The notes beneath the pieces are model-generated. The model was not told the DNA's origin. It ran no database searches and was given only the letters and a program-made list of their open reading frames with translations. Position numbers and translations under genes: made by a program. A stretch of DNA of 64,000 nucleotides from Subtercola sp. (lineage in GTDB: Bacteria; Actinomycetota; Actinomycetes; Actinomycetales; Microbacteriaceae), in NCBI GenBank assembly GCA_025463765.1, contig JAODBC010000033.1:26467-90466 (forward strand), given 5' to 3'. This document shows positions 15,534-35,054 of this stretch, one piece after another; within the stretch, counting starts at the first letter, position 1, and each line of letters begins with the position of its first letter.

Positions 15534-15765
15534 AGCTACTCCCTTGTAGGTGGTGTTGGTGCCCTCAAGTATCGCGCAAATTGCTGCGTATGAAAAGGAT
15601 TATTCGATTGGATATTGACTTTGCTCTTATTCCGTATGCCGGGCGCAACGGTGCGAAGAGTGACAGAGTCGGGATGACTGGGCATATCGATAATCTGTGC
15701 GTATAGTTAGCATGCTGGTAATGAATTATCGACTCGTGCCCGATTCGAACGACGGAGTTCTTGTA

Positions 15766-17804: not shown

Positions 17805-17856
17805 CCGGATACCCCGGCAGATCACCCCCGCACCCACAACTCGAAGGAGAGAAACG

Positions 17857-19071: not shown

Positions 19072-19109
19072 ATTCGCTCACCGCCCGTAGCTTCAGAAAG
19101 GTATGAACA

Positions 19110-19325: not shown

Positions 19326-19348
19326 TCCGGTCGACGCCGGGAGATCTC

Positions 19349-19378
19349 GGGTACCGCATCACTCGTGCTGCGGTACCC
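19349..19378. terminator. Terminator between convergent ferredoxin and MFS genes
   Basis: Arms GGGTACCGCA (19349-19358) and TGCGGTACCC (19369-19378) are perfect, followed on the plus strand by TTTCTC. The stem overlaps the last codons of the MFS gene on the minus strand. Confidence 0.7.
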
Positions 19379-20552
19379 TTTCTCGCGCCCGGCGGCTGGC
19401 GGTCGACGCGGCCACCACGAAGAGCGGAGTCAACACCGCTGCGACGATCCACAGCCCGTTCGTCAGGCCCACTCGCGTTGCTACCTCGCCTCCGGCGATC
19501 ACGAACAGCGCGCAGGCCGCGTAAGAGATGCAGGCGTACACCGACGCTCTGCCCCCCTGTAGTCGAGGGGTCAGCCCGGCCGAGGCGATGCGCAACCCCA
19601 GGCGGTAGCCGGCACCCTGCCCGAACCCGACGAAGGCGCAACCGAGCACGACGAACGGAACCAGGCCTGCCGCGACCGAGGCAGCGATGATCACGACTCC
19701 GGCTCCCATGCAGATCATGGCCAGAGCCGACATATGCCTGATCGATCTGCCCCCCACCGAGAACTGCCCGATGTTCGCGAAGACGAGCAACGCGATCGTA
19801 CCCAAGCCGGCGATCAGCAACGATGTGGTGTTGAGGTCTTGGCTGATGGCGAGCGGAACGAGCGCCACAATGATGCCGCCCGAGATCCAGGCGAGCGAGC
19901 CCATCAGGTAGCCCGTCCAGCGGGCAGGCAGATCGCGCGGAACGGCCGTGTTGATGGCGACCTGCCGATCGAGTGCCCACGATGACCGGGGCCAGCGCAC
20001 GAGCCCTACGATCACGGCGATGAGCGCCGCGCACGTGACGGCCGCATGAATGGCGTATCCCGCGATCAGTGGCGCGGGGCCGAATTGGGCGAGTGTAACG
20101 GCGATGATGCTTCCGACGACCGCGCCGACGATGGTGCCCGTCGCTGCGAGAGTTCGTGCGCGTTCGCCCCGGAGTGCCAGGGCGAGGCTGGCGGCTGCTC
20201 CGGTGCCGAGGCCGAGGCTGATTCCGTTGAGGGCACGGCCGACGATGAGAGCCGGGTGCGTGGCTAACGAGAGAACGAGGTCGGCGACCACCGCCATGAG
20301 CAGCGCCGCCACCAGCGCCGCACCCGGTCGGGATTGCATACGCGGCCGGGCCATGGCTGCAAGGGTGATGGTGAGCGCGATGAGAAAGGAGCTGTAGACG
20401 ATCGACAGATCCGCCGGATCCAGACCGAGCGTTCGGCCGTACAGAGGCAGAAGCGGGTTGGGCAGATTTGGCCCAGCAACGATGACGACGAATGCCACGG
20501 GAATGGTCGCAGAGAGGATGCGGGGCGACAGACCCGAATTCGCCCGGCTCAT
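19359..20552 (-). CDS. MFS transporter
   Basis: A 397-residue membrane protein with about twelve hydrophobic segments, the normal length of a major facilitator. The loop after helix 2 reads RPRMQSRPGAA, a weak version of the A-motif. The C-terminus is basic (SRRARERVPQHE). Its ATG overlaps the stop of the HtaA-domain protein by 4 nt, so the two are coupled. It may import or export the substrate of the island; no sequence feature identifies it. It converges on the P450 operon. Confidence 0.88.
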   Translation of the reverse strand: MSRANSGLSPRILSATIPVAFVVIVAGPNLPNPLLPLYGRTLGLDPADLSIVYSSFLIALTITLAAMARPRMQSRPGAALVAALLMAVVADLVLSLATHPALIVGRALNGISLGLGTGAAASLALALRGERARTLAATGTIVGAVVGSIIAVTLAQFGPAPLIAGYAIHAAVTCAALIAVIVGLVRWPRSSWALDRQVAINTAVPRDLPARWTGYLMGSLAWISGGIIVALVPLAISQDLNTTSLLIAGLGTIALLVFANIGQFSVGGRSIRHMSALAMICMGAGVVIIAASVAAGLVPFVVLGCAFVGFGQGAGYRLGLRIASAGLTPRLQGGRASVYACISYAACALFVIAGGEVATRVGLTNGLWIVAAVLTPLFVVAASTASRRARERVPQHE

Positions 20553-21088
20553 CGAGACGCGGGGGCGATCACCGAGCGCGGAACATACAGCGGGTCGAGC
20601 ATCGTTTCGGCGGGGTAAACGTCACCGAACAGGTGGGAGCCCTCTGCCGTCAGCACCGGCCAGAGCTCGATCTGCTCAGTCTCGATCAGCTCTGCGTGTG
20701 TACGCTCCGCCTCGGCGCGATCGGGGCCGCCAGTGAGAAGGGCGATCATGAGCCGTTCTGCACCCCCGTTTGTCGACGTGGCACCGTCCACCGTCAGCCA
20801 GGCGGCGCCGTGGCGCACGATGACGGCAGGGTCGCGCAGTGAGAAGTCGAGCGCGCCGAAGTGGGCGGAGAAGTGAATCGTGCCGGCGAATCGGGTGTCC
20901 TGGTCGTCGCTGCCACTACCCGAGGCCGCGTCAGACACGAGTGGAAAGACGAAAAAGAAACCGTCTTCTGTGGCGGGCGATTGCACTTCTACCGTTCCGC
21001 CGGCCGTTCGCAGGTAGCGCCGAAAGCTCGTCTTGACGCCCCAGACCAGAGCTGATGGTGCTGACACCTTCGTCGATGGATGCTGCAC
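20549..21088 (-). CDS. HtaA-domain protein without signal peptide
   Basis: A 179-residue protein that resembles the HtaA domain known from corynebacterial heme-uptake proteins: ALVWGVKTSFRRYL near the start, then FFFVFPLVSD, then FAGTIHFSAHFGALDFSLRD with DPAVIV. The aromatic and His positions used for heme in HtaA appear to be present (Tyr in RRYL, His in SAHFG). Unlike HtaA it has no signal peptide or C-terminal anchor and holds a single domain. I chose GTG 21088 because GAGAGGAAAA precedes it. It heads a two-gene unit with the MFS gene and is divergent from the amidohydrolase operon. Confidence 0.65.
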   Translation of the reverse strand: MQHPSTKVSAPSALVWGVKTSFRRYLRTAGGTVEVQSPATEDGFFFVFPLVSDAASGSGSDDQDTRFAGTIHFSAHFGALDFSLRDPAVIVRHGAAWLTVDGATSTNGGAERLMIALLTGGPDRAEAERTHAELIETEQIELWPVLTAEGSHLFGDVYPAETMLDPLYVPRSVIAPASR

Positions 21089-21161
21089 GTCCGGCTTTTC
21101 CTCTCTGAAGCGACCTCTCGACAAGCTTGGCGTGCTTGCTTCGCATATACAAGATCAATAT

Positions 21162-21178
21162 AATCATGATCATAGTAA
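21162..21178. promoter_or_regulatory. Shared 17-bp motif, copy 2
   Basis: AATCATGATCATAGTAA lies in the divergent region between the HtaA-domain gene and the first amidohydrolase, ending 23 nt before the latter's start. It matches the consensus at 16 of 17 positions and contains the palindrome ATGATCAT. Confidence 0.7.
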
Positions 21179-21201
21179 GCACCTAAGTTTCGGAGGATGC
21201 C

Positions 21202-22335
21202 ATGACAACGCAGTTAGCAACTCCCGCACCCGTGTTCGGGTCGGAGACCACGTACCCCATCGTGGATTGCGATATTCACCCCATGGCTCCGTCGACGGCG
21301 GACTTCTATCCCTATCTCTCATCGGCCTGGCGTCAGCACTTCGACGAGCGCGGCATTCGAACCTACGCCCGGGCTCGTGACCGGTACAACCACCCCGCCG
21401 ACACCCAGCGGCTCGACGCGTACCCTGAAGACGGGGGGCCTGCGGGCTCAGACCCTGCGATGACCATCGCGCGTCACCTCGACCCTTTCGGCATCAGCGT
21501 GGCGCTGTTGCTGCCGCAGCAGCCGTACGGCGTCACGTCGTGGGGAGACGTCGACGCGGCCAGCGCCTTCATCTCGGCCACCAACGACTTCTTCGTCGAA
21601 AAGTGGGTCGGCTACGACGAGCGCTACAGCCTCGCGGTAACGGTCTCGCCGCACGACCCCGCCGCCGCCGCCGCGGAGATCCGCCGGCACGCGGACACCC
21701 CCGGGGTGATTGCGGTACAGCTGCTGCTGATGGATCGCATGCTGGGCGACACCTGGTATGACCCGATCTACGAAGCCGCCTGCGAGGCCGGTCTTCCGAT
21801 CGCAATGCACCAGAGCGGGGCAGAAGGGTGCTTCACGTACTCTCAAGGCCCGGCAGTCGGTGTTCCGCGGTCATACGGCGAACGTCACGTGGTGCTGACT
21901 CAGGTCGGCGCAGCGAATGTCGCAGACATGGTGGTGGGTGGGGCCTTTGAGCGTTTTCCTGAACTCAAGGTCGTCATGGTCGAGTGGGGGTTCAGCTGGC
22001 TTCCGTCGCTGAGCAACCGACTTGATCTGTTCTGGCAGCGTGACCCTTCAGCCGCCCTGCGCATCAAGAAGCTTCCGAGCGAGTACATCCAGAAGCACTT
22101 CACCTTCACCACGCAGCCGCTTGACGAGGTCGAGACGCAAGCCGACCGAAAGGCGCTCTTCTCTGCTAGTGGGCTCAGCGACATGTTGCTGTTCAGCTCG
22201 GACTACCCGCACTACGACACCGATGACCCCCGATTCGTGCTGCAGAACAAGATTCCAGAAGAATTGCGGGCCGCGCTCTGCTACCAAAACGCGGTCGGGG
22301 TGTTTGGGCCCGAGATTCTGCGTGCCGTCGCCTGA
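21202..22335 (+). CDS. Amidohydrolase_2 (ACMSD-like TIM-barrel) family metal-dependent hydrolase, active-site-complete paralogue
   Basis: A 377-residue TIM-barrel hydrolase or decarboxylase. Candidate metal and catalytic residues are D22/D24/H26 in VDCDIHP, H203 in IAMHQSGAEG, E261 in VEWGFSWLPSL and D334 in FSSDYPHYDTD. In ACMSD-type enzymes these positions bind Zn or another divalent metal and act in decarboxylation or hydrolysis. The start has GGAGG upstream. It is the first gene of an eight-gene operon running to 28307, headed by the shared motif. The substrate is unknown; ring-cleavage or carboxylate chemistry would fit both the family and the operon. Confidence 0.88.
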   Translation: MTTQLATPAPVFGSETTYPIVDCDIHPMAPSTADFYPYLSSAWRQHFDERGIRTYARARDRYNHPADTQRLDAYPEDGGPAGSDPAMTIARHLDPFGISVALLLPQQPYGVTSWGDVDAASAFISATNDFFVEKWVGYDERYSLAVTVSPHDPAAAAAEIRRHADTPGVIAVQLLLMDRMLGDTWYDPIYEAACEAGLPIAMHQSGAEGCFTYSQGPAVGVPRSYGERHVVLTQVGAANVADMVVGGAFERFPELKVVMVEWGFSWLPSLSNRLDLFWQRDPSAALRIKKLPSEYIQKHFTFTTQPLDEVETQADRKALFSASGLSDMLLFSSDYPHYDTDDPRFVLQNKIPEELRAALCYQNAVGVFGPEILRAVA

Positions 22336-22406
22336 GGCGCAGCCACGAGCATCCGTCGCCCGGCACCGCGCCGCGCAGCAAGCCCAGACCTACAGAGAGG
22401 TACGTC

Positions 22407-23417
22407 ATGATTTTTGACGTTGACCGCCACGTCGCGGTTCAGAGTTACAGCGAGATCTTTCCGTTCATGGAACACTCCTGGCAGAAGCATTTCGAACGAA
22501 AGGAGTTCGTCGGTTCCATCGCGGAGTCGTCGAACCACATCAGGGTCTCGAGCAGATTCGGCGATGCGCCTGAATCTGCCCCGGCGCTGGTCGAGGCAGA
22601 CCATACTCTGCTCGTGCCGCACCAGGCACTGACCGTCAACGGCTGGGCCGACAACGTCGCCGCAGTAGTCTTCGTCGAGGCATTCAACAGCTTCGCCGCA
22701 GAGAACTGGGTGAGCGAGAAATCGGCCCCCGCCATTGTCGTTTCTGCTGCCGACCCGGAATGGTCGGCGCGCGAGATCACGCGTCGCGCGGGTGACGGTG
22801 GTTTCGGCGCCGTCGCGCTTCCGCTCGGGGCGACGCTGGCCGGCTCGAAATATTACGACCCGATTTACGAGGCGGCCTCGAACGCGGGACTGCCGATCGT
22901 CTTTCACTTCTCGGGTGTCGAAGGCTTTTACGATGGAGCTCCCGGGCTCGGCGGCGGCATTCACCAGACGGCGTTCTCGCGGCTGGTACTGCTGCCTCAA
23001 CTCGCCGAATCGACGATTACCAGCCTGGCGTTCGAGGGAGTCTTCGAACGCTTTCCACAGCTTCGGGTCGTGTTCTCAGGATTCGGGTTCAGCTGGCTGC
23101 CGTCGTTGCTCTGGCGACTCGATCGGGAGTGGCGAACGTTCCGGCACGACGTGCCATGGGTGAAGCGAGTGCCGAGCGAGTACGTACTCGAGAACGTCTG
23201 GCTGACGACCTGGCCACTCCAGGAGGCCACGATGGATGACGACTGGCACCGTTTGTTCAGCACAGAAACCCTGCGCAGCCGAATCGTCTTCGGTTCGCAT
23301 GCGCCCTTCGATGGCGACGCTCCGTCTGACGTGGTCGAGCAATTGGGCGAAACCGACGCGGCACTCGTGCTCGGCAACGGCGCAGCGTTGCTGCCCTTCG
23401 TCTCGGTACGAGCATGA
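22407..23417 (+). CDS. Amidohydrolase_2 family paralogue with altered active site
   Basis: A 336-residue paralogue of the preceding gene. It shares FERFPQLRVVFSGFGFSW, the linker VPSEYVLENVWLTTWPLQE and the same domain order. It keeps D4/D6/H8 (FDVDRHV) and H167 (IVFHFSGVEG). The conserved Asp of SSDYPH is replaced by His298 (FGSHAPFD), and the Glu of VEWGF by Gly225 (SGFGF). It may therefore be a structural or regulatory partner of the first paralogue, or have different chemistry. Its stop overlaps the Rieske start by 4 nt. Confidence 0.82.
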   Translation: MIFDVDRHVAVQSYSEIFPFMEHSWQKHFERKEFVGSIAESSNHIRVSSRFGDAPESAPALVEADHTLLVPHQALTVNGWADNVAAVVFVEAFNSFAAENWVSEKSAPAIVVSAADPEWSAREITRRAGDGGFGAVALPLGATLAGSKYYDPIYEAASNAGLPIVFHFSGVEGFYDGAPGLGGGIHQTAFSRLVLLPQLAESTITSLAFEGVFERFPQLRVVFSGFGFSWLPSLLWRLDREWRTFRHDVPWVKRVPSEYVLENVWLTTWPLQEATMDDDWHRLFSTETLRSRIVFGSHAPFDGDAPSDVVEQLGETDAALVLGNGAALLPFVSVRA

Positions 23418-23884
23418 CGTCAGAACGCCTCGGTTCGACTGTGACCGCTGATGCCGCCGCTGGCGCACCTGGGGCGGTCACGCCCGGCGTGGCCGACGAC
23501 GGTTTCGAATACATCTGCGAGCTCGACGAGCTGGTGCCGAACAAGATTCGGCGTTCAGCGGTCGGCGGTCGAGAGATCGGCGTCGTTCGCACCGTGGCCG
23601 GCGTTTTTGCCATCGGCTCCAGCTGCCCGCATCAGGGCGGCCCGATGTGCGACGGCGCGATCAAGGGCACCATGGAGCCCTCCGATCGTAACGAATACGT
23701 CTTCGCGCAAGAAGGCGAGGTCGTGACGTGCCCCTGGCACGGCTACGAGTTCGAACTGAAGACCGGTGCGAGCGTCGGCGGGGCCATCCTCGGGCGAATC
23801 GGCGTCTATCAGGTCGACGTGCGCGGCACGGCGGTATTCTGCAGCTCGAAGCGAATTCGCCCGCAACGCCGGAGGGCGGAGTAG
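23414..23884 (+). CDS. Rieske [2Fe-2S] protein, orphan
   Basis: A 156-residue Rieske protein with CPHQGGPMC (Cys71, His73) and CPWHGYEF (Cys106, His109), the complete CxH and CxxH ligand set. It has an N-terminal extension of about 35 residues compared with ordinary Rieske ferredoxins of about 105. No ring-hydroxylating oxygenase alpha subunit occurs in the window, so its electron acceptor is unclear. The start overlaps the amidohydrolase stop and its stop overlaps the next GTG by one base, so it is made together with its neighbours. It could serve the amidohydrolase pair or an unlinked oxygenase. Confidence 0.9.
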   Translation: MTSERLGSTVTADAAAGAPGAVTPGVADDGFEYICELDELVPNKIRRSAVGGREIGVVRTVAGVFAIGSSCPHQGGPMCDGAIKGTMEPSDRNEYVFAQEGEVVTCPWHGYEFELKTGASVGGAILGRIGVYQVDVRGTAVFCSSKRIRPQRRRAE

Positions 23885-24750
23885 TGCGCTCGGGTCTGCG
23901 TTCGTTTCTTTTCGTTCCTGGCGATGACGACCGCAAGCTCAGCAGGGCTGCCACGACGGCCGCGGATGCCCTGATCGTCGACCTCGAAGACGCCGTCGCG
24001 CCAGAGAACAAGAGCGCCGCACGACAACGGGTGCTCTCCTTCATCGGGTCGTATGCGGGATCTGCCGAACTCGTGGTGCGCATCAACGCCGCGGGCACGC
24101 CGTTCTTCGTCGACGACCTCAGGGCTGTCGCGGCCACGAAGACGGTCGCGATCATGCTGCCGAAGGCCACGGAGGCCAGCCTTCGCGAGTTGGCCGCCCT
24201 CGCGCCCGGAGCCGAAATAGTCGCTCTGATCGAGACGGCGCTCGGAGTCGAGCAGGCCTTCGTGATCGCATCGCACCGTCAAGTGATGCGGCTGATGCTC
24301 GGCTCGGCCGACCTGGCTGCAGAACTCGGAATCGCCCTTTCGGTCGACGAGATCGAGATGCAGTATCCGCGTGCACGGGTCGCGTTCGCGTCGGCGGCGG
24401 CACTGCGCGAGGCCCCGATCGACGTCGTGCACCTCGGTGTAGCAGACCCCGAGGCCCTGCTCGAGAGCAGCCGGCGCGGCAAGGCGCTCGGATTCACGGC
24501 CAAGGCGTGCATCCACCCTGCCCAGCTCGACGTGGTGAATCGCGTGTTCAGCCCGAGTGCAGGCGAAGTCAGCGAGGCTCGCGACGTCGTCGAGGCCTAT
24601 GCGGATGCCCGGCAGGCCGGCCTCGGAGTGACGTCTGTCAACGGCAAGCTCGTCGACCTTCCGGTCGTATTGCAGGCCCAACGGATTCTTGCGATGCATA
24701 ACGCACCGTCGATGCAGAGCGCGACCATTCGCGGAGAGGAACAAAGATGA
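23884..24750 (+). CDS. HpcH/HpaI-type CoA-ester lyase (CitE-like)
   Basis: A 288-residue TIM-barrel lyase beginning at GTG 23884, which overlaps the Rieske stop (TAGTG) and has GGAGG upstream. Family motifs are SFLFVPGDDDRKLSRA, ADALIVDLEDAV (Asp/Glu for Mg), ALIETALGVEQA and GFTAKACIHPAQLDVVN. Known members cleave malyl-, methylmalyl- or citramalyl-CoA. With the MaoC hydratase and CaiB CoA-transferase that follow, it forms the same trio as the itaconate route (transferase, itaconyl-CoA hydratase, citramalyl-CoA lyase). The true substrate here may be a related branched C5 or larger acid. Confidence 0.9.
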   Translation: MRSGLRSFLFVPGDDDRKLSRAATTAADALIVDLEDAVAPENKSAARQRVLSFIGSYAGSAELVVRINAAGTPFFVDDLRAVAATKTVAIMLPKATEASLRELAALAPGAEIVALIETALGVEQAFVIASHRQVMRLMLGSADLAAELGIALSVDEIEMQYPRARVAFASAAALREAPIDVVHLGVADPEALLESSRRGKALGFTAKACIHPAQLDVVNRVFSPSAGEVSEARDVVEAYADARQAGLGVTSVNGKLVDLPVVLQAQRILAMHNAPSMQSATIRGEEQR

Positions 24751-25280
24751 CGAACACAGCGACCGTGCAGGCGCCGAAAGAATGGCGAGGTCGATACTTC
24801 GAAGACATGGAGGTCGGCGACGTCTATCGCAGTCGGCTGGGGCGCACCATCGAGCAGACCGACAACACCTGGTTCACCCTGCTCACCTGCAATACGAACC
24901 AAGTGCACTTCAATAGCGAGTTCGCGGCGGCGACGGAATTCAAAGAGCCGCTGGTCAATTCGTGTCTGACGCTTTCGATCGTCGTCGGCCTCTCAGTGGC
25001 AGACACCAGCGAAAACGCCATGGCGAATCTCGGCTGGGACTCAATCTCTATGCCGACACCGGTCTTCGCCGGCGACACGCTCTGGGCCGAGAGCGAGGTG
25101 CTGTCGAAGCGAGAGTCTAAGTCGCGACCACATCAGGGCATTGTGGGCATCCGCACCAGAGGCGTGAATCAGCGTGGCGAAACTGTCGTCGAGTACTTGC
25201 GCACCTTCATGATGTACCGCCGCAGTGCCCCGCAGGCGGTCAGCCGTTTTCCTGAACCCGCCTCTGAGTGGCGGGTCTGA
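24747..25280 (+). CDS. MaoC-family acyl-CoA hydratase (itaconyl/mesaconyl-CoA hydratase-like)
   Basis: A 177-residue hot-dog protein. It begins with GRYFEDMEVGDVYRSRLGR and TIEQTDNTWFTLLTCNTNQ, then VHFN, the form of the MaoC hydratase motif found in itaconyl- and mesaconyl-CoA hydratases. It then has the region PVFAGDTLWAESEVL. It should add water across the double bond of a branched enoyl-CoA, giving the substrate for the CitE-like lyase upstream. The ATG overlaps the lyase stop. It is longer than minimal MaoC domains but normal for this subgroup. Confidence 0.88.
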   Translation: MTNTATVQAPKEWRGRYFEDMEVGDVYRSRLGRTIEQTDNTWFTLLTCNTNQVHFNSEFAAATEFKEPLVNSCLTLSIVVGLSVADTSENAMANLGWDSISMPTPVFAGDTLWAESEVLSKRESKSRPHQGIVGIRTRGVNQRGETVVEYLRTFMMYRRSAPQAVSRFPEPASEWRV

Positions 25281-25344
25281 TCCATTTCTCACCGCTCGTG
25301 CGATGACGCCCGAGTTTCGCAAACACCCCGAGGAGTTGTAACCA

Positions 25345-26583
25345 GTGAGCATCACCGACCAGCCCATCATCACCGAACCGCTTGGCCCGACCGACCTGAG
25401 AGCACTGGCCGGTCTGAAGATCGTCGAGTTCGCGCACGTAATCGCGGGCCCGTTGGCCGGCACGCTGATGGCGGACCTTGGCGCCGACGTCGTGCATGTC
25501 GAAGATCCGGGGCGCGGCGACCCGCAGCGAAATGCCGGTCCCGCGAAAGACGGCACCCACCTGTGGTGGAAGGTTTCGGCACGAAACAAGAAGTCGGTCA
25601 CGCTCAATCTGCGCACCGAAGAGGGCCGAGTTCTCGCACGGGAGCTCGCGATGTGGGCCGATGTCGTGATCTGCAACTTCCGAGTCGAGACGCTCGAGAA
25701 GTGGGAACTCGACTTCGTCTCGTTGAACAAGATCAACCCGAAGCTGATCATGCTGCAGGTCACAGGCTTCGGCAACACGTCGTCGAAGCGCAATTCACCC
25801 GGCTTCGGTAAGGTCGGCGAGGCCATGAGCGGTGTTGTGAACATCACCGGTTTTCCCGACGGACCGCCCGTGCATACCGGCTTCTCGCACGGCGACTCCG
25901 TGACCGGTCTGATGGGTGCGTTCTCAGTGATGGCGGCCCTCTACCGTAAGAACACCGATCCAGAGTTTCGTGGTGAATGGATCGATCTCGCGCTGTACGA
26001 CGGACTGTTCCGGCTCATCGAGTGGCAGGTCATTTTCTACGACCAGCTCGGTGAAAATCCCACCCGCGTCGGCAACGAGTTGTCGGCCGCGCCGGCCGCG
26101 GTCATCAACACCTTCAAGACTTCGGATGATCGTTGGATCACCGTCACGTCGGGCACCCCGCGTTCGGTTCAGAACGTGGCCGCTCTCGTCGGTGAGCCGA
26201 TCGAGGAGTATGCCACCGCCGCCATGCAGGTGGTGCGCAAGGCGCGGCTCGACGAGATGGTTCGCCAGTGGATTCTGCAGCACACGCTCGACGAGTGCAT
26301 CGCCGAGATGACCCGCCTCGAGGTCGTCGCGTCGCCGATCTTCACGGTCGAAGACATTCTGGCCGACCCGACCTACCGCGAACGTGAGAACGTTGTCGAG
26401 ATCGAAGACCCCGACCTGGGCATGGTGAAGATGCAGAACGTCTTTCCCCGGTTGGCCAACTACGCCGGAAAGGTCTGGCGCACTGCTCCGGCACTCGGCG
26501 AAGACAGTGATGCGGTGTACAGCCAGGCGCTCGGGCGCACGCCAGAGCAGATCGCCGAACTGCGCGCCGCCGGTACGATCTAG
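25345..26583 (+). CDS. CaiB/BaiF (class III) CoA-transferase
   Basis: A 412-residue formyl-CoA-transferase-family enzyme starting at a GTG. It has VIAGPLAGTLMADLGADVVH and VEDPGRGD, RNKKSVTLNLRTEEG, and SHGDSVTGLMGAFSVMAAL, where the Asp is the expected acyl-anhydride-forming residue. It moves CoA to a free carboxylic acid from a donor such as succinyl-CoA. In this operon it would activate the acid released by the CamK-like hydrolase encoded next, or a dicarboxylate such as itaconate. A 64-nt gap separates it from the MaoC gene. Confidence 0.93.
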   Translation: MSITDQPIITEPLGPTDLRALAGLKIVEFAHVIAGPLAGTLMADLGADVVHVEDPGRGDPQRNAGPAKDGTHLWWKVSARNKKSVTLNLRTEEGRVLARELAMWADVVICNFRVETLEKWELDFVSLNKINPKLIMLQVTGFGNTSSKRNSPGFGKVGEAMSGVVNITGFPDGPPVHTGFSHGDSVTGLMGAFSVMAALYRKNTDPEFRGEWIDLALYDGLFRLIEWQVIFYDQLGENPTRVGNELSAAPAAVINTFKTSDDRWITVTSGTPRSVQNVAALVGEPIEEYATAAMQVVRKARLDEMVRQWILQHTLDECIAEMTRLEVVASPIFTVEDILADPTYRERENVVEIEDPDLGMVKMQNVFPRLANYAGKVWRTAPALGEDSDAVYSQALGRTPEQIAELRAAGTI

Positions 26584-26624
26584 GGTGCGACCGGTCAGCG
26601 CGGACGCCCGAAGGAGTGTGCTCC

Positions 26625-27365
26625 ATGAGTGAAGTTGTTCCCGAGTGGCAGACGGTCGCTGTGTCGGTCGCAGACGACATCATCGAGTTGCGGCTGCATT
26701 CCGGCGAGCAGTCGCTCGTATGGAGTGCAACCGCGCATCGCGAAGTCATGGAGGCTTTCGGCTGGGCCGGTTCGCGCCGTTCGACCAAAGCGGTGATCAT
26801 CACCGGCACCGGCGAGACGTTCTGTTCGAGTATCGACGTTGCGTCGTTCAAGGGCATGCCGTGGGATGAGATCTGGTGGGAGGGGCGGCGCATGTTGCAG
26901 AACATCACCGACATCGATGTTCCGGTCATCGCGGCCGTCAACGGCCCGGCGACCGCCCACGCAGAGATCGCGGTGCTGGCCGACATCGTCATCGCTTCTG
27001 ATACCGCGGTGTTCGGTGACCATATCCACATCACTCGTCGAACCGCGCCGGGTGATGGCGCGCACGCGGTCTGGGCGAACCTGCTCGGCCCGTCTCGGGT
27101 GAAATACTTTCTGCTCACCGCGGCGACCATCGACGCCCACGAAGGCAGAACCATCGGATTCGTGCACGAGGTTCTGCCGTACGACGATGTTCTGCCGCGG
27201 GCTCACGCCGTCGCTGAGCGGCTTGCAACGCTGAGCGTTCCCGTGCTGCGATTCTCGAAGGCGGCGGTGTCGATCGCCGCTCGCCGGTTCTTCGCCGAAG
27301 ACCTGAGCCACGGCCTCGGTCTCGAGGGCAGCGGCCACTGGGTCGACGGCGGCATCTCGTCGTAG
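26625..27365 (+). CDS. 6-oxocamphor-hydrolase-like crotonase (beta-diketone C-C hydrolase)
   Basis: A 246-residue crotonase that departs from enoyl-CoA hydratases. It lacks the usual paired Glu and the CoA-type AGAD loop, and reads GEQSLVWSATAH, IITGTGETFCSSIDV, NGPATAHAEI and APGDGAHAVWANLLG. From memory these are the landmarks of 6-oxocamphor hydrolase (CamK/OCH) of Rhodococcus. Its catalytic residues His45, His122, His145, Asp154 and Glu244 correspond to His38, His112, His135, Asp144 and Glu234 here, with a constant offset of 10 for the last four. Such an enzyme opens a bicyclic beta-diketone to a keto-acid by retro-Claisen cleavage. ATG 26625 has AAGGAG upstream. Confidence 0.8.
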   Translation: MSEVVPEWQTVAVSVADDIIELRLHSGEQSLVWSATAHREVMEAFGWAGSRRSTKAVIITGTGETFCSSIDVASFKGMPWDEIWWEGRRMLQNITDIDVPVIAAVNGPATAHAEIAVLADIVIASDTAVFGDHIHITRRTAPGDGAHAVWANLLGPSRVKYFLLTAATIDAHEGRTIGFVHEVLPYDDVLPRAHAVAERLATLSVPVLRFSKAAVSIAARRFFAEDLSHGLGLEGSGHWVDGGISS

Positions 27366-27440
27366 CCCATCGTGCGGCGCACCGGCGGCGACTCTGATTC
27401 ATCCGAACTTTCACCACTCTCAACGTCAAAGGAGACACCA

Positions 27441-28307
27441 ATGGCTGACGCACAGCGCCTCGACATTCCCGAATTCACGAGTGACACACGGCTCGCCGGT
27501 CGAACCGCCATCGTGACCGGAGCGGGCTCTGCCGGCGAGATGGGCGGCACCGGTTCGGATATCGCGGTGCTTCTGGCCGCGAAGGGGGCGAACGTCATGA
27601 TTCTCGATGTCGACGAAGCCCGCGCCTGGCACACCGCCGAAGCGGTCGAACGGGTCGGCGGCACCTGTCTCGTCGCAATCGCCGACATCACCGAACAAGA
27701 GGAGTGCGAAGACGCCGTCGACAAGTGTGTTCGCGAGTTCGGTGGCGTCGACATTCTGGTGAACAATGCGGCCATCGCTCCCGGCGAGCAAGAGAATTTG
27801 CGGTCGATGTGGGACAAGATCATCGCGCTCAACCTGACGGCAGTGAAACTCATGTCTGACGCGGTGTTGCCGAGCATGTTCGAAAAGGGTGCGGGTTCGA
27901 TCATCCACATCACCTCGGTGGCCGGTCTGCGCGCCGGCGGGGGCATCGGGTACTCGGCGTCGAAGGGCGGGCTCATCGCAATGGCCAAGGCTCAGGCATA
28001 CGAGTATGGTCCGCGTGGGGTGCGCGTGAACACGGTCGCTCCCGGGCACGTCGCCATTCCCATGGGCCTCGGTTTCGCGGGCTGGAATGGCGGCGGAACC
28101 GGCGAGATGCGCCGTCGCCGCGCGAAGGCGACGATGCTCGGAACCGAAGGCACGGGGTGGGATGTCGCGTTCGCGGTACTCTACCTCGCCAGCGACGAGG
28201 CCTCGTATGTGACGGGCCACACCATTCCCGTCGACGGCGGCACCACCGAGGTGTTCCCCATCGTCATGGCTGAGACGATCGTCGGCGACGGTTCGGGCAG
28301 TCTCTAG
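27441..28307 (+). CDS. SDR family oxidoreductase with enlarged glycine loop
   Basis: A 288-residue short-chain dehydrogenase. The nucleotide motif reads TGAGSAGEMGGTGSDIA, about five residues longer than the usual TGxxxGIG loop. The NNAA motif, ITSVAG and active-site YSASKGG are intact. The C-terminus has the normal DGGTTEV plus about 20 extra residues. The start has AAAGGAGA upstream. It is the last gene of the 21.2-28.3 kb operon and probably oxidises a hydroxy intermediate to a ketone, perhaps the diketone used by the CamK-like enzyme just upstream. Its stop overlaps that of the convergent MmgE/PrpD gene. Confidence 0.87.
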   Translation: MADAQRLDIPEFTSDTRLAGRTAIVTGAGSAGEMGGTGSDIAVLLAAKGANVMILDVDEARAWHTAEAVERVGGTCLVAIADITEQEECEDAVDKCVREFGGVDILVNNAAIAPGEQENLRSMWDKIIALNLTAVKLMSDAVLPSMFEKGAGSIIHITSVAGLRAGGGIGYSASKGGLIAMAKAQAYEYGPRGVRVNTVAPGHVAIPMGLGFAGWNGGGTGEMRRRRAKATMLGTEGTGWDVAFAVLYLASDEASYVTGHTIPVDGGTTEVFPIVMAETIVGDGSGSL

Positions 28308-29695
28308 AGCACAAAAGAATTCGTCAGGGAACGGGCGTCGGCGGCGCTGCCGAGCAGACTGATGTGCTGCAGCGCAGCCGTCGCCTTCGCTTCGCCGAGC
28401 ACGGGCGTTGCACGCACGAGAAACAGGCGCGCGAAAGAATCGTCGTCGGGAAACAGGATGCCCGGCCGGCGCCCGGCCAGCGTCACCGTCTCGCCATCGC
28501 TCAGGTGCACGACATACTCAACGTCGCCGCTGACCGATGTCTGAAGATGAATGCGTTCGGCGAGATCATGGGTAGCCTCGTCAGAGCCCGCGGACTCGAA
28601 ATAGAACGGGCGGTTGACCGGCCGGCCGAGCAGGGCCGCGGCCGCGGTGAATCTCGCCGACATCTGTCGCTGCAGCCGCGTTTCATAGGGCCCGTCGGCG
28701 CCGACTCCCGGGCTGGCGGTGCCGTTCTCGGGGGTGTTCGGGCGTCGAAGCACGACGGCCTCGATCTCGCGGTCGCCGATCAACTCGCGCACCTCGCCAG
28801 CGAGTTCGATGCTCTCTTGGTTCTGCAAGCACACCGCGTACTTCTTGCTTCCCAGCCCCTCGAGGGCGAGCCGCTCGTCGTCGGAGAAGAGCGGATCGGG
28901 AATCGCCGCCTGCCCGGCGTAAACGGCGAAGAACCCGTGTTCGCCCTCGAGGGCCAATTCTGCGCTCGGGGCTCCGGCGACGGCCAGTGAGGCCGCCAGC
29001 AGACCGTTTCGGGCCGCGAACCCGGCATGGAAGTACGGTTCCATGCTGCCAGAGACGAAGCCCTGGCTGGTGCCGGCCGATGTATTGGCGGCGATGCCGA
29101 TGGCGCGCCCGATGACTTCGGCGTCGCCGCCGAGGGCGTAGGCGGCGGCAACCGCGGCGCCGAACGGCCCCATGACGCCGACCGGCCGAAACCGACGTGC
29201 GCTCAGTGCGGGCGGAACGGCAAGACCCAGCCGGTGAACGGCCTCGTACCCGGCGATGATGGCACGCTGCAATCGGTCGCCCGAGCATCCACTCAGGTCT
29301 GCGGCCGCCAGCGCCGCGGGAATGACGTACGTGCCAGGGTGGCTGCCTTCGCGAAACCCGCCGGGCCCGCAGTCTTCTTGCAGGCTGCTGTGCGCCGTTA
29401 CCGCGTTCACGAAGGCCGCTGCGCCCGGCGCAAGGCGAGTGGATGAACCGACGACGACGGCATCGCCCGACTCTGTCGTGAGTGCGTCGAGCGCGGTGCT
29501 GAACGGCTCTAGCGCTGTGCTGGCGAGGCTTACTCCGAGGGAGTGCGTGAGGCGATTCGAGACGGCCGTGCCCGAAGACGATGTCAGCGGGGCAGCGGCC
29601 AAGTCGTAGATCTTCTCGGCGAGCGCGTGCGCCATTCCGCCGGAACCATAGACACTGCTCGAGGTCACCGGACTCACGCCAGCGGGAATGGTCAT
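28304..29695 (-). CDS. MmgE/PrpD family protein
   Basis: A 463-residue protein of the family that holds 2-methylcitrate dehydratase, cis-aconitate decarboxylase and iminodisuccinate epimerase. The hallmark stretch FVNAVTAHSSLQEDCG, followed by EGSHPGTYVIPAALAAAD, and the helical region with MGPFGAAVAAAYALGG are typical. The exact reaction cannot be read. The presence of an itaconate-type trio close by makes a branched tricarboxylate or dicarboxylate plausible. GAGG precedes the ATG. It is divergent from the alpha/beta hydrolase across the third copy of the shared motif and ends tail to tail with the SDR (shared CTAG). Confidence 0.82.
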   Translation of the reverse strand: MTIPAGVSPVTSSSVYGSGGMAHALAEKIYDLAAAPLTSSSGTAVSNRLTHSLGVSLASTALEPFSTALDALTTESGDAVVVGSSTRLAPGAAAFVNAVTAHSSLQEDCGPGGFREGSHPGTYVIPAALAAADLSGCSGDRLQRAIIAGYEAVHRLGLAVPPALSARRFRPVGVMGPFGAAVAAAYALGGDAEVIGRAIGIAANTSAGTSQGFVSGSMEPYFHAGFAARNGLLAASLAVAGAPSAELALEGEHGFFAVYAGQAAIPDPLFSDDERLALEGLGSKKYAVCLQNQESIELAGEVRELIGDREIEAVVLRRPNTPENGTASPGVGADGPYETRLQRQMSARFTAAAALLGRPVNRPFYFESAGSDEATHDLAERIHLQTSVSGDVEYVVHLSDGETVTLAGRRPGILFPDDDSFARLFLVRATPVLGEAKATAALQHISLLGSAADARSLTNSFVL

Positions 29696-29721
29696 GTGAA
29701 CCTCACTTCAGTGGAATGGCA

Positions 29722-29738
29722 ATTCATGCATATAGTAA
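29722..29738. promoter_or_regulatory. Shared 17-bp motif, copy 3
   Basis: ATTCATGCATATAGTAA lies between the divergent MmgE/PrpD (start 29695) and alpha/beta hydrolase (start 29793) genes. It matches the consensus at 14 of 17 positions. Confidence 0.65.
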
Positions 29739-29792
29739 CATTGATAAGAATGATGTTGGTGGAGTTGTTCGCTCAGCGAGGAGTTATGGATC

Positions 29793-30641
29793 ATGCACGA
29801 CTATCAAGATGGTGAAGTTCGCGTCGGCGGCCTCAAAATGCATTACCTCGAGTGGGGCACCCCGGGCAAGCCGCCGCTGGTGATGCTGCACGGCCTGAAC
29901 GTTCAGGCCCACACGTGGGATCCGATCTCCCGTCGCCTTGCGAGCGACTACCACGTGTTCACGCCCGATCTGCGCGGGCACGGTGAGAGCGACTGGTCGA
30001 AGACGGGATACCGAGTGCGTTCGATGTCGAACGACATCAGCCTCTTCGTCGATGCACTCGGCATCGGCGAATTCGACCTGCTGGGGCATTCGGCGGGTGT
30101 GCGCGTCGCGCTCTCGCTGGCGGGCGAACGCCCCGACATCGTGAAGAAGCTGATCTTGTCTGACGCGGGCCCCGAGACCACCCGCGCGGGTGCGGAGTTC
30201 ATGCGCGACTTCATTCAGCGCACCGTCTCGATTCGCGGGTTCCGCAACTCGGCCGAGGCGCGCGAGTACTACAAGAAAGAGCACCCTGAGTGGGTCGAAG
30301 AGTTCATCGACCTGCACGTCGAGCACCAGCTGCGCAAGAACTGGGCCGGCAAGCTCGTGCTGAAGGCCGACCCCGACGTGCAGTGGATCACTGGGTCGGC
30401 GAGCCTGCCCGACATTCCCTACCTGTGGAAGATGTGCGCCCAGGCGAGCATGCCCACCCTGCTGATGATCGGTCGCACGAGCAACGTGCTCGACGAGGGC
30501 ATCGTCGAAAAGATGACCACCGTCATGCCCGACGCCGTGGCGCTCTGGTTCGAGACCGGCCACTACATTCCACGTGAACAGCCCGAAGAGTTCATCGCTG
30601 CAGTGCAAGACTTTCTCGCCGCCGAGAAGGTGACCGCATGA
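29793..30641 (+). CDS. Alpha/beta-hydrolase
   Basis: A 282-residue hydrolase. It has the oxyanion segment MLHGLNVQAHTW, the PDLRGHGESDW turn, the nucleophile Ser100 in LLGHSAGVR, and the late histidine in ETGHYIPREQPEEF. These are the motifs of the hydrolase group that cleaves esters, lactones or C-C bonds of ring-fission products. In a Baeyer-Villiger or ring-cleavage pathway it could open a lactone or a keto-acid; that role is inference. Its stop overlaps the next ATG (second CitE-like lyase), so the two are co-expressed. Confidence 0.88.
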   Translation: MHDYQDGEVRVGGLKMHYLEWGTPGKPPLVMLHGLNVQAHTWDPISRRLASDYHVFTPDLRGHGESDWSKTGYRVRSMSNDISLFVDALGIGEFDLLGHSAGVRVALSLAGERPDIVKKLILSDAGPETTRAGAEFMRDFIQRTVSIRGFRNSAEAREYYKKEHPEWVEEFIDLHVEHQLRKNWAGKLVLKADPDVQWITGSASLPDIPYLWKMCAQASMPTLLMIGRTSNVLDEGIVEKMTTVMPDAVALWFETGHYIPREQPEEFIAAVQDFLAAEKVTA

Positions 30642-31510
30642 CCGCACGCGCTGATTTCGCGACGATGACGAGCCTCATCGAGGTGCCTATTCTGAATCCC
30701 AAATACTGGTCGAAGGTGCCCGAGGTGCAGGCCGACGCGATCATGCTCGACCTCGAAGACTCCGCGACACCGGCGAACAAGGCGGCGGTGCGCACGGCGA
30801 TCATCGAGGCGCTCGGCGATATGTCGTACTTCGGCGGGCGCCGCGTCATCGTGCGGTGCAACAACCTCGCCACCCCGTGGGGCCGAGACGACCTCGAAGC
30901 CCTCGGCGCCGTGTCGGCCGATATCGTGGTGTCGTATCCCAAGGTCGAGCGGCGCGCGGAGCTCGACGAAGTGGCCGGCATTCTCGCGGCTGCAGGCAAC
31001 GCGCATCCACTGCACGTCATGATCGAGACCGCGCGCGCACTGATCGAGATCGACCAGATCGCGTCGCACGAGGCCGTGGCCGGCCTGCACTTCGGCTACG
31101 TCGACTTCGCGGCAGACGTGGGCAGTCGCCCGTTCGATGCGAACGGCGAGCTGTCGATGCTGACCAGTGGCTACGCGCGATCGAAGATCGCCATCGCGGC
31201 GGCGGCCTACGGGCTTTTCGCAACGGGCGGCTCACTGATTCCCGACTACAAAGATCTCGACAAAGTGCGGGCGCTCATCCAGTCGTGGTCAGACCTCGGA
31301 TACACCGCGTGCATCGCCGTGTCGCCGGCCCATCTGCCGATCATCAACGAGGTCATGCGCCCGTCTGCCGCCGAGATCACGAAGGCGAAAGAGGTCGTCG
31401 AGGCCTACGATGCGGCCACCGCACAGGGCGACCCGGCTGCAGTACTCAATGGGCGAGTAATCACGCTGCCCGACTACCGGGTCGCCGAGCTGCTGCTCAA
31501 GCGCGCGTAA
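30638..31510 (+). CDS. Second HpcH/HpaI-type CoA-ester lyase (CitE-like)
   Basis: A 290-residue TIM-barrel lyase paralogous to the one at 23.9 kb but divergent. Mg-binding ADAIMLDLEDSATPANKAAV is intact, the arginine is in VIVRCNN, the central Glu in HVMIETARALIEID, and the C-terminal SPAHLPIINEVMRPS replaces the CIHPAQ motif. The beginning (SLIEVPILNPKYWSKVPEV) differs from the usual FVPG start. It should also split a beta-hydroxyacyl-CoA. Having two such lyases in one island suggests two different cleavage steps. It is coupled to the alpha/beta hydrolase. Confidence 0.82.
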   Translation: MTARADFATMTSLIEVPILNPKYWSKVPEVQADAIMLDLEDSATPANKAAVRTAIIEALGDMSYFGGRRVIVRCNNLATPWGRDDLEALGAVSADIVVSYPKVERRAELDEVAGILAAAGNAHPLHVMIETARALIEIDQIASHEAVAGLHFGYVDFAADVGSRPFDANGELSMLTSGYARSKIAIAAAAYGLFATGGSLIPDYKDLDKVRALIQSWSDLGYTACIAVSPAHLPIINEVMRPSAAEITKAKEVVEAYDAATAQGDPAAVLNGRVITLPDYRVAELLLKRA

Positions 31511-31577
31511 TCGCAGCGCCCGTGCGCGAGCGGATGCCCGCGCGCAACGACCTCGCCGACTCGACCTCCGTCGGTCG

Positions 31578-32354
31578 TCAGCCCCAGTTGATGACCGACG
31601 GCCCGAATCCGGGCGAGGCCTCGAGAGTCTGAGCGAAGTGCTCGGTGAGGTGCTCACGCATGAGTCTCTCGGCCAGATCACCGTCGCCGGCGATCACGGC
31701 GTCGCCAATGCGGCGGTGTTCATGCCTGATCGTCGGCTTCGTGGTCTTCTCGGCGAGACCCACGCCCACGACGCGGGTCGTATACATTTCTTTCAGGGCC
31801 GTGGCGACGAGGTTGAACACGCTGTTTCCGGTGAGCGTGGCAAGCAGATAATGAAAGTCGTTCGCTGCTTCGACCACGGTTCCGGCGGTCGGGCGCACCG
31901 ACTCCTCGCGGTCGAGGGTGGCGAGAATCGCGGCCTTCGACTCGTCGCTGATCGCTTCGGCGGCCATGCGGGCCGCTTGCGGGTCGATGATGAGGCGCGC
32001 ATCGACCAGCTCCTGAATCGTGGCGCCGCTGATGTTGAGGTACAGCGAGAAGCTGCGGCTGACGTCGCGCGGATTGACGCTCAGCAGCACGGGACCGCCG
32101 CCGGGGCCTGAGCGCAGGCTGATCATGCCGTAGGTCTCCAGAATGCGCAGAGCCTCGCGCAGTGAGCCGCGACCGACCTCGAACTGCTCGATCATCTCGG
32201 CCTCATTGGGCAATCGATCGCCTGGTTTTAGGCCGTTGTCGACGATGAGAGTGACGATGGCCGAGGCGACGCGCTCAGAGGTCTTGACCTGACGCCCGAT
32301 GGCCGATGCGCTGAAATTGGTGGGCCACGCCGACTTCGACTCAGACTCAGTCAT
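31578..32354 (-). CDS. GntR/FadR-family regulator with FCD domain
   Basis: A 258-residue regulator. The N-terminal winged helix reads GLKPGDRLPNEAEMIEQFEV and GRGSLREALRILETYGMI, the GntR signature. The C-terminal all-helical FCD domain has the metal/ligand residues DFHYLLA and RHEHRRIGDAV typical of FadR-like proteins. ATG 32354 has a short AGGGG site upstream; an earlier ATG is possible but lacks one. The fourth copy of the shared 17-bp motif lies 32-48 nt upstream of its start, so it is the best candidate for the regulator of the whole 9.8-33.8 kb island and of itself. An acyl-CoA or acid ligand is likely. Confidence 0.88.
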   Translation of the reverse strand: MTESESKSAWPTNFSASAIGRQVKTSERVASAIVTLIVDNGLKPGDRLPNEAEMIEQFEVGRGSLREALRILETYGMISLRSGPGGGPVLLSVNPRDVSRSFSLYLNISGATIQELVDARLIIDPQAARMAAEAISDESKAAILATLDREESVRPTAGTVVEAANDFHYLLATLTGNSVFNLVATALKEMYTTRVVGVGLAEKTTKPTIRHEHRRIGDAVIAGDGDLAERLMREHLTEHFAQTLEASPGFGPSVINWG

Positions 32355-32385
32355 CGATACCCCTGTCCGTCCGAACGATAAGAAC

Positions 32386-32402
32386 ATTCATGATCATAGT
32401 AT
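32386..32402. promoter_or_regulatory. Shared 17-bp motif, copy 4 (own promoter of the GntR/FadR regulator)
   Basis: ATTCATGATCATAGTAT matches the consensus at 16 of 17 positions and shares the 14-mer TCATGATCATAGTA exactly with copy 2, 11 kb away. It is in the promoter region of the FadR-type regulator. Confidence 0.7.
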
Positions 32403-32453
32403 TCGGGGTTGCGACGTGCGCCGCAAGCGAGTCGTTCTCACCGAAATTCCGTG

Positions 32454-33749
32454 CTAGGTGCGAAGACCCGCCCGGTCATCTGGGTGCGCGATCTGGGCGA
32501 GCAGCTCGCGTCGCTCGAACAATGTGCGCCCCGTGAGGTGCGCAATGCCGTATTCGGTCACGACGTAATCGACATCCCCACCCGCTGTCGTTGCCGTTGC
32601 TCCGTGCAGTGCGTCGACGATGCGACTGTGAGCTTTTGCGCTGCGCGACGGTAGTGCTATCACCGACGCACCTTCAGCGCTCAGATGCGCCGCCCGCATG
32701 AAGTCGGCCTGCCCGCCGCCGCAGACGAGCTTCTGTCCGTTCATCCACTCGGCGTTTGTCTGACCGCTCAGGTCGACCGAGAACGCCGAGTTGATCGACC
32801 ACAGGTTCGGGTGCCGAGCGAGCTCGATCGGCGAGTGGGTCTGCGAGATGGGCCGCAACTCGACCGTCTGAGGCCACGCACCGCGGCCGGCGGTGGGCGA
32901 GAGGCCGGTCGCCACCACGCGGCCCTCGTCGAACGTCTTCGCCGCCCCGGTGAACCGCCCGGCGGCGAGCTCGGCGCGCAGCGAGTTCGGCAGAATACCG
33001 GTGTGGATGCCCGTGCGGCCGTTGATCGAAAGTGCTCCGATGATCGCTTCAGCCGCCCCGCCGATACCGATTTGTACCGTCGCGTCTGGGGGCACAATCG
33101 AGGCGATCAGGCGCGCAATGTGCTCCCGCTCGGCGTCGTGTCGCTGTGGAGTCGGCGGGGCAGCCTCGTAGGGCGTCACGGTGTCGTGCCAGACGGTGGC
33201 CCGTGCGGCGGCGTCTGTGTCGAGTGTGGCGAAGCCCGTTGCGTACTGCTGAGAATGCGAGACCTCGAGGGCGAGCACAACGTCGGGGCGTGCCGCCAGG
33301 GTTGGGGTGTAGGCGACCATGTTGCCGAGGTCGAATGCGCCGTCGAAGAGGCCCGGTTGCACCCGAACCGCGTAGATGTCGCACGCGATCTGACCGCTGC
33401 CGAGCATCCGGTCGGCGTCCCACAGCGAATGCGGCCAGCTGTCGACGAGGCCGCTCAGGGCGCGAGGAACGCCCCCGGCCAGCATCGAGATCTGCAGGCG
33501 TCCTGAGGCGAGATCGTTGCGGCCGTCTTCGTCGAGAAAGTCGAACGTGCCCTCGACATCGGCGACGAGCAGCCGAATCGCGATGCCGAGTCGGCGGGCT
33601 TCGCGAACCAGTGCGGCAAGCAGGAAGGTCGGCTGCTGAGGCGACATCGCCGCACAGACCGTCACCGCCGCTCTGCCGTCGAGCAGAGTTTCAGCGGTAT
33701 TTCGTAGTTCCGCATCGTTCGCACTCGAATGCAGCAGGAATTGGTTCAT
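32454..33749 (-). CDS. Acetyl-CoA hydrolase/transferase family CoA-transferase
   Basis: A 431-residue class I-type CoA-transferase of the group that includes 4-hydroxybutyrate and propionate CoA-transferases. It shows VQIGIGGAAEAIIGAL, GIHTGILPNS, then NSAFSVDLSGQTNAEWMNG, VCGGGQADFMRAA, and a C-terminal VVTEYGIAHLTGRTLFER, all standard. It exchanges CoA between acids, so it can activate an intermediate of the island or recover CoA. Start ATG 33749 has GGTGGGA upstream. It is divergent from the acyl-CoA dehydrogenase at 33836; the short region between holds a weaker copy of the shared motif. Confidence 0.88.
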   Translation of the reverse strand: MNQFLLHSSANDAELRNTAETLLDGRAAVTVCAAMSPQQPTFLLAALVREARRLGIAIRLLVADVEGTFDFLDEDGRNDLASGRLQISMLAGGVPRALSGLVDSWPHSLWDADRMLGSGQIACDIYAVRVQPGLFDGAFDLGNMVAYTPTLAARPDVVLALEVSHSQQYATGFATLDTDAAARATVWHDTVTPYEAAPPTPQRHDAEREHIARLIASIVPPDATVQIGIGGAAEAIIGALSINGRTGIHTGILPNSLRAELAAGRFTGAAKTFDEGRVVATGLSPTAGRGAWPQTVELRPISQTHSPIELARHPNLWSINSAFSVDLSGQTNAEWMNGQKLVCGGGQADFMRAAHLSAEGASVIALPSRSAKAHSRIVDALHGATATTAGGDVDYVVTEYGIAHLTGRTLFERRELLAQIAHPDDRAGLRT

Positions 33750-33768
33750 TGCGTCCCACCTTCGTATC

Positions 33769-33785
33769 CGTCATAATTATACGCA
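33769..33785. promoter_or_regulatory. Weak candidate copy of the shared motif
   Basis: CGTCATAATTATACGCA matches the consensus at 10 of 17 positions, including the core TCATNATNATA. Its place, between the divergent CoA-transferase and acyl-CoA dehydrogenase genes, supports it more than its score does. Confidence 0.35.
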
Positions 33786-33835
33786 TCAATAGCCGCAATC
33801 TCAGCTAGCCGTTCTGAAACCAAAGGATCCGCCGA

Positions 33836-34999: not shown

Positions 35000-35054
35000 C
35001 GGCGGTCGACGAGACCGGCGGCCGCGGCGACCCAGAGCGCCTAGCATCGTGTTC

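Follow-up and report, generated by a model that had tools for sequence, protein, structure and literature searches.

The gene at 26,625-27,365 (+) of the stretch analysed here, 64,000 nucleotides of a Subtercola sp. genome (assembly GCA_025463765.1, contig JAODBC010000033.1, positions 26,467 to 90,466; hereafter the window), encodes a protein whose active site and predicted fold match those of 6-oxocamphor hydrolase (OCH), and it lies within a gene cassette that recurs in four genomes. Our reading, to which we assign a probability of roughly 60%, is that this OCH-family enzyme opens a cyclic beta-diketone as part of a ring-degradation pathway encoded by the cassette and recurring in at least three genera.

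Sequence and predicted fold together identify the 246-amino-acid, crotonase-fold product as an OCH-type beta-diketone hydrolase. Its closest solved relatives, by sequence and predicted fold alike, are OCH and the beta-diketone hydrolase of Anabaena (ABDH), which outscore every listed CoA enzyme by at least about 80 bits in the comparison with solved structures. H38, H112, H135, D144 and E234 align with H45, H122, H145, D154 and E244 of OCH, so that the catalytic His and Asp residues coincide in a sequence alignment set within a whole-fold match. Across 40 aligned relatives (the window protein and 39 others from the best 120 of 708 matches at E≤1e-20) W33, F75, H38, H112, H135 and D144 are invariant, and H38, H112, H135, D144 and E234 are all kept at 15 of 15 OCH-like loci in other genomes, Trp33 at 14 of these. 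As a same-genome control we compared seven ordinary crotonases, out of 19 other matches in the genome: H38 and H112 are absent from all seven, His135 and Asp144 occur in one each, and Glu234 occurs in six. These counts in relatives and own-genome crotonases make H38, H112, H135 and D144 the discriminating residues, while E234 is not diagnostic. The oxyanion stretch of the window protein reads T-A-H-A-E and includes H112; in all seven own-genome crotonases examined this stretch contains Gly and has no His at 112, and the window protein lacks the GGG-type Gly-rich oxyanion stretch, ahead of a conserved acidic/hydrophobic segment, which marks CoA-dependent crotonases. The OCH-type active site and fold of the original prediction are thus borne out by the residue alignment, the fold match, the relatives and the own-genome controls, and its claim of all five catalytic residues holds in its diagnostic part for the three His and the Asp, Glu234 being present yet without power to discriminate. 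The best matches are led by OCH and ABDH and do not consist of CoA-dependent hydratases only; chance resemblance or a generic enoyl-CoA hydratase was rejected on the score lead, the fold match and the diagnostic residues. ABDH carries the same three His, Asp and Glu and was solved with a 3-oxocyclohexyl ligand (according to the structure title), and the shared residues therefore indicate the type of reaction and not the substrate. The protein is likely, on its sequence, a member of the OCH/beta-diketone hydrolase family that would open a cyclic beta-diketone by hydrolysis of a C-C bond.

When 35 window proteins were first compared with the loci of the nearest relatives, OCH proved to have the same gene neighbours in Saccharopolyspora spinosa and in two Arthrobacter strains, one of which (L010) stops at a contig edge and was left out of the count. 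Four cassettes were compared: those of the window, Arthrobacter sp. efr-133-R2A-120 (hereafter Arthrobacter), S. spinosa and a further genome of the host's class (G207). The cassette genes in the window are as follows, with percent identities to Arthrobacter/S. spinosa/G207, or to the first two where two are given.

9,772-13,677 (+): sugar-type ABC transporter of binding protein (35/39), double ATPase and permease
15,697-17,034 (+): FdR, BphA4/HcaD-type ferredoxin reductase, its true start possibly later than the annotated GTG (58/51/53.5)
17,031-17,804 (+): SDR1, short-chain dehydrogenase (SDR), predicted to oxidise the P450 product (69/52)
17,857-19,071 (+): cytochrome P450, nearest solved relatives CYP105-like hydroxylases (64/63/54)
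19,110-19,325 (+): ferredoxin of 71 amino acids, C-x5-C ... C-P, directly after the P450 (66/58/52)
21,202-22,335 (+): AmH1, predicted AibH2/SfbO-type amidohydrolase-fold dinuclear monooxygenase subunit (78/62)
22,407-23,417 (+): AmH2, partner of the same fold with three metal ligands lost (68/54)
23,414-23,884 (+): small Rieske ferredoxin, CPH ... CPWH (67/50)
23,728-24,750 (+): CitE1, HpcH/CitE-type CoA lyase, its true start probably around 23,881-23,884, where the Rieske gene ends (48/42/45)
24,747-25,280 (+): MaoC-type enoyl-CoA hydratase, RipB-like (86/48/47)
25,345-26,583 (+): CoaT3, class III CoA-transferase (84/75/71)
26,625-27,365 (+): OCH-type beta-diketone hydrolase (51/60/38)
27,372-28,307 (+): SDR2, second short-chain dehydrogenase, probably starting near 27,441
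28,304-29,695 (-): MmgE/PrpD-family protein (55/47)
29,793-30,641 (+): ABH, alpha/beta hydrolase (63/61/62)
30,638-31,510 (+): CitE2, second HpcH/CitE-type lyase, malyl-CoA lyase-like (74/64/58)
31,578-32,387 (-): GntR/FCD regulator (65/54/54.5)
32,454-33,749 (-): ACH, acetyl-CoA hydrolase/transferase family protein (51/42/43)
33,836-34,999 (+): ACAD2, acyl-CoA dehydrogenase (80/74/75.5)

Twelve of these genes (P450, ferredoxin, FdR, OCH, CoaT3, CitE1, CitE2, ABH, ACAD2, ACH, MaoC and GntR) are present in all four cassettes at 38-86% identity, in an order that varies between the genomes, and the cassette is common to at least three genera. SDR2 and the transporter ATPase and permease share 49-73% identity with their Arthrobacter and S. 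spinosa counterparts and only 30-34% with those of G207 (ATPase 32%, permease 30%), which for SDR1 holds only distant SDRs (≤31%). AmH1, AmH2, the Rieske protein, PrpD and the binding protein occur in three of the four cassettes, G207 having no match to any of them even at E≤1e-3. The G207 cassette was also retrieved by the CoaT3 and P450 searches; its OCH-family protein (38% identity) falls outside the clade of the window protein in the tree, and since the slot is thus filled by an OCH-family protein of another clade, the cassette seems to require a reaction of OCH type. The P450, sought independently at E≤1e-120, was found in two of 394 genomes of the class, the window's own and G207, which both carry an OCH-type gene no more than 10 kb away from it. 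In Arthrobacter a GFO/IDH/MocA protein directly follows OCH (L029:10615-11715, +), and a second ABH copy (L030:16794-17645, +) lies about 24 kb from the first, their first 60 residues differing at one position.

The FdR, P450 and dedicated ferredoxin at 15,697-19,325 make up a class I P450 system, as they do in the other three cassettes; the original prediction had such a system at 15.8-19.3 kb make the diketone together with an SDR, and the ferredoxin (Fer4_15 51.0 bits, Fer4_13 43.2 bits), SDR1 and SDR2 are all found. The nearest solved relatives of the P450 are compactin hydroxylase (325 bits) and enzymes that we take to be CYP105-like as a group, and no camphor hydroxylase is named among the best 60 of the 153 solved chains that it matches. 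An arrangement in which the Rieske protein serves the P450 was dropped, as the 71-amino-acid ferredoxin was found and as G207, which has FdR, P450 and ferredoxin, gave no match to the Rieske or AmH proteins at E≤1e-3.

Two points go beyond the original prediction: the window encodes a second predicted oxygenase (21,202-23,884), and the cassette recurs in other genera. AmH1 matches 8sm7 at 216 bits and chain B of 6m1w (AibH2) at 164.6 bits, 6m1w and 6m2i presumably both being AibH1H2, while AmH2 matches 8sm6 (SfbO) at 134 bits. The numbering of 6m1w chain B fits the published AibH2 ligands, and when the AibH2 and AibH1 ligand positions are taken from the accessible parts of PMC10401708 and PMC7782822, AmH1 has all six AibH2 ligands (D24, H26, H203, E261, D334 and H337, for D25, H27, H211, E265, D337 and H340) and the second-shell Asp (D339). 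All seven are kept in AmH1 of the window, Arthrobacter and S. spinosa, the three cassettes with AmH1 examined. In the same three cassettes AmH2 keeps three ligands in the AibH2 columns, the others being changed from Glu to Gly, from Asp to His, or, for a His, lost in a gap, and it does not carry the five ligands of AibH1 (D24, H26, H201, E255 and D328); AmH2 is the more degenerate partner because AibH1 retains its Glu and Asp ligands (as the available text of PMC7782822 has it). The accessible part of PMC10811679 describes such proteins as amidohydrolase-related dinuclear oxygenases (AROs), detected by their adjacency to small Rieske proteins, and a small Rieske protein (23,414-23,884) does adjoin AmH2. 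AmH1 is thus predicted to be an ARO, a dinuclear monooxygenase subunit of AibH2/SfbO type; hydrolase or decarboxylase roles for the AmH genes are less likely, as AROs head the solved matches of both and none of the six ligands is missing from AmH1. The Arthrobacter cassette has an AibF-like flavin/2Fe-2S reductase beside ACAD2 (L030:6607-7596, -) and a second (47%) about 3 kb before its AmH1 gene. For the former, neither the window nor the S. spinosa and G207 stretches gave a counterpart at E≤1e-3; two homologues (49-51%) lie elsewhere in the window's genome. G207 lacks the AmH1/AmH2/Rieske trio, which therefore resembles an accessory to a core of P450, OCH and CoA enzymes; its absence also suggests that FdR goes with the P450.

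Two CitE-type lyases are present in each of the four cassettes, and Thiolase_N (E≤1e-10) has no match in the four cassette spans and 9-15 elsewhere in each genome. This combination suggests, as far as gene content can tell, aldolytic removal of a side chain, which a ring beta carbon would demand by blocking thiolysis; the thiolases elsewhere in the four genomes could nevertheless serve the pathway. Outside the cassette, CoaT3 homologues (56-64%) have a CitE-family gene adjoining or within 2 kb at six of seven actinobacterial loci (L067-L071, L073), and the stretches compared, some of which end at contig edges, contain no P450, OCH or AmH match. Transferase and lyase therefore look like an older pair recruited into the cassette, perhaps a small module of its own.

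These parts can be joined into a proposed pathway. The ABC transporter would bring the substrate into the cell, the P450, served by FdR and ferredoxin, would hydroxylate a ring carbon beta to a carbonyl, and an SDR would oxidise the product to the diketone. In the OCH-type enzyme the H135/D144 pair would activate water for attack on one carbonyl while the enolate is held by H112 and nearby residues; these roles are transferred from those that we presume for the single residues of OCH. Hydrolysis of a bridged diketone by OCH leaves a ring with a carboxymethyl arm (the truncated title of 1szo refers to its campholinic acid product), and the acid released here would be of this kind if the chemistry follows OCH. 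It would then be converted to a CoA ester (CoaT3), desaturated (ACAD2) and hydrated (MaoC), after which a CitE-type lyase would split off acetyl-CoA and leave a ketone or keto acid, with no need for a thiolase. AmH1, AmH2 and the Rieske protein, in the three cassettes that have them, would likely oxidise another C-H bond, in the ring that is left. Taken as a whole this would be an undescribed aerobic pathway of actinobacteria, in which the ketones are built by two unrelated oxygenases, a class I P450 and a Mn/Fe (or diiron) monooxygenase of amidohydrolase fold that has a pseudo-subunit poor in metal ligands, an OCH-type retro-Claisen reaction opens the ring, and the carboxymethyl arm is lost by CoA activation and aldol cleavage and not by thiolysis; in this full form it is a tentative proposal, at a little over one chance in three. 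A bicyclic monoterpenoid is our leading guess for the substrate.

Several observations weigh against the reading of an OCH-family enzyme within a recurrent ring-degradation cassette, or against parts of it. The cassettes of S. spinosa and Arthrobacter were located via OCH, so that the linkage of OCH to the other genes there is not independent and the argument is partly circular. Eleven further OCH-like loci were compared together with their surroundings, up to about 10 kb to either side and less where a contig ended. None of them matches CitE1, CitE2, ABH, ACH, GntR, ferredoxin, AmH1, AmH2, Rieske or PrpD (E≤1e-8), and only distant family genes (26-36%) are seen for CoaT3 (five loci), ACAD2 (seven), MaoC (six), FdR (three) and P450 (three). 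OCH relatives therefore also serve other, apparently CoA-linked pathways, and the absence of a nearby CitE-type lyase at these loci argues against aldolytic cleavage as the usual step after an OCH-type reaction. At position 234, Glu is found in 28 of the 40 relatives and Gln in 12. MaoC scores 194.1 bits against RipB (cut-off 340) and CitE1 163 bits against RipC (cut-off 375), both below the cut-offs, and this likeness may point to a C5 diacid end-product rather than to removal of a ring arm. The ORF at 43,841-45,481 (-), just outside the cassette, encodes a 547-amino-acid flavin oxidoreductase (Pyr_redox_3 67.6 bits, FMO-like 32.4 bits, above the Pfam cut-off) that could be a Baeyer-Villiger-type monooxygenase, which makes a Baeyer-Villiger route conceivable; the four cassette spans have no PF00743 match at E≤1e-6, in a search that also missed this weaker match next door.

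The tree (38 rows, in which the seven ordinary crotonases sit on long branches that make their own placement unsure) bears on the substrate. The window protein falls in starred clades of 11 rows (97/95) and of 17 rows (99/94), both without OCH, which stands at the unresolved base of the tree together with ABDH and several loci. The window protein thus does not share a clade with OCH, the mark by which we would call it a 6-oxocamphor hydrolase in the strict sense, and a true 6-oxocamphor hydrolase (the enzyme that we take CamK to name), in an island degrading camphor by the 6-hydroxylation route of Rhodococcus, is an unlikely narrowing of our reading, all the more with a P450 nearest to CYP105-like enzymes. 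The original prediction of a CamK and of bicyclic monoterpenoid ketone degradation does not stand in that form, given the 11-row clade and the presence of the same residues in ABDH. In a second narrowing of our reading, the beta-diketone would be monocyclic, larger or more polar, and the cassette would degrade a polar alicyclic, part of a diterpenoid or a compound derived from a glycoside. This would fit the importer, which is of the sugar (RbsA/YtfR) type, the CYP105-like P450, the oxidoreductase that follows OCH in Arthrobacter, and ABDH with its 3-oxocyclohexyl ligand. However, such importers have broad ligand ranges, the transporter is poorly conserved in G207, and no glycosidase model matches among the island ORFs scanned, so that we regard a substrate of this kind as possible but somewhat doubtful. 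Most improbable of all is a CoA-dependent crotonase, whether an enoyl-CoA hydratase or a ring hydrolase like EchA20, acting on a CoA ester: Pfam ECH_1 matches above its cut-off and many NCBIfam crotonase models match as well, if far below theirs, the neighbouring genes encode CoA enzymes, and EchA20 is itself a crotonase able to open the ring of a CoA ester (in the accessible text of PMC5380842), but the Gly-rich oxyanion stretch is replaced by A-H-A with the His that OCH and ABDH also have there, and OCH and ABDH lead all listed CoA enzymes by the 80 bits or so given above. An OCH-type hydrolase opening a cyclic beta-diketone is our preferred reading.

The OCH-type gene is scattered among genomes. 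Among the matches listed the nearest protein is that of Subtercola endophyticus (96% identity); at E≤1e-40 a relative occurs in one of 199 genomes of the host family (the window's own) and in none of three other listed genomes of the host genus, whilst class-wide 11 of 394 genomes have a relative, the window's own included. The order of S. spinosa has a relative in three of 397 genomes at E≤1e-50, S. spinosa among them. This patchy presence suggests horizontal gain. In a search of plasmids, OCH-like places were found in 35 records, all of them below 60% identity. For the window's genome, completeness is 88.4% and contamination 4.41%.

Around the core, an HtaA-domain protein (20,549-21,124, -) lies beside an MFS transporter; in Arthrobacter, too, the two come after the P450 (32% and 44% identity). 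A fused FAD oxidase/4Fe-4S/CCG protein at 34,977-37,985 (+) resembles the D-2-hydroxyglutarate dehydrogenase YdiJ (463 bits, cut-off 1350). The ORF at 38,894-41,062 (-) encodes a luciferase-like monooxygenase (TIGR03858 393 bits, cut-off 462) for which the comparisons with Arthrobacter, S. spinosa and G207 gave no counterpart; it extends upstream in an Arg-rich reading and its family match begins at residue 378, so that the true gene probably spans no more than about 350 codons. A radical SAM protein with a CofH C-terminal domain (45,474-48,161, -) is, we presume, the F420 enzyme FbiC. A promoter and terminator scan of 15,500-34,000 gave signals at or below chance, a repeat scan of 20,900-34,200 found short, imperfect families only, and there is no tRNA in the window.

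A literature search, in which most subscription papers fell outside reach, found no publication on this cassette, and it differs from each of the known systems that it resembles. The window protein stands outside the clade of OCH (PDB 1o8u/1szo), and ABDH (PDB 2j5g/2j5s) has Phe and Leu where the window protein and OCH have Trp33 and Phe75. With the RipABC system of itaconate breakdown and the citramalate pathway, which consists of a CoA-transferase and a citramalyl-CoA lyase, it shares a RipB-like MaoC, a RipC-like CitE1 and a class III CoA-transferase near a CitE-type gene, but the RipB and RipC matches stay below the curated cut-offs and the genes belong to a cassette that also encodes oxygenases. 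EchA20 of mycobacterial steroid-ring degradation is likewise of the crotonase superfamily and opens a ring hydrolytically in catabolism, yet it acts on a CoA ester and clusters with MenB (both from the accessible text of PMC5380842). The camphor route called completely known in a 2014 review proceeds by Baeyer-Villiger oxidation (PMC4097962, as far as its text was available), and the cassette offers a multi-gene setting for OCH-type chemistry, testable gene by gene. The second oxygenase resembles SfbO and AibH1H2-AibG-AibF, the Mn/Fe monooxygenase of Rhodococcus wratislaviensis, in the six AibH2 ligands and second-shell Asp of AmH1, the adjacent small Rieske protein and the paired PF04909 genes; it differs in that AmH2 lacks the Glu and Asp ligands kept by AibH1 as well as the conserved His of AibH1, and in that the AmH system sits with a P450 and OCH. 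In the accessible part of PMC10401708, 555 AibH2-like proteins are described as uncharacterised, with gene neighbourhoods that gave little functional hint; the cassette places one such orphan AibH2-like monooxygenase in a defined gene set, and identifying its substrate would give both this monooxygenase and the OCH-type enzyme a natural role.
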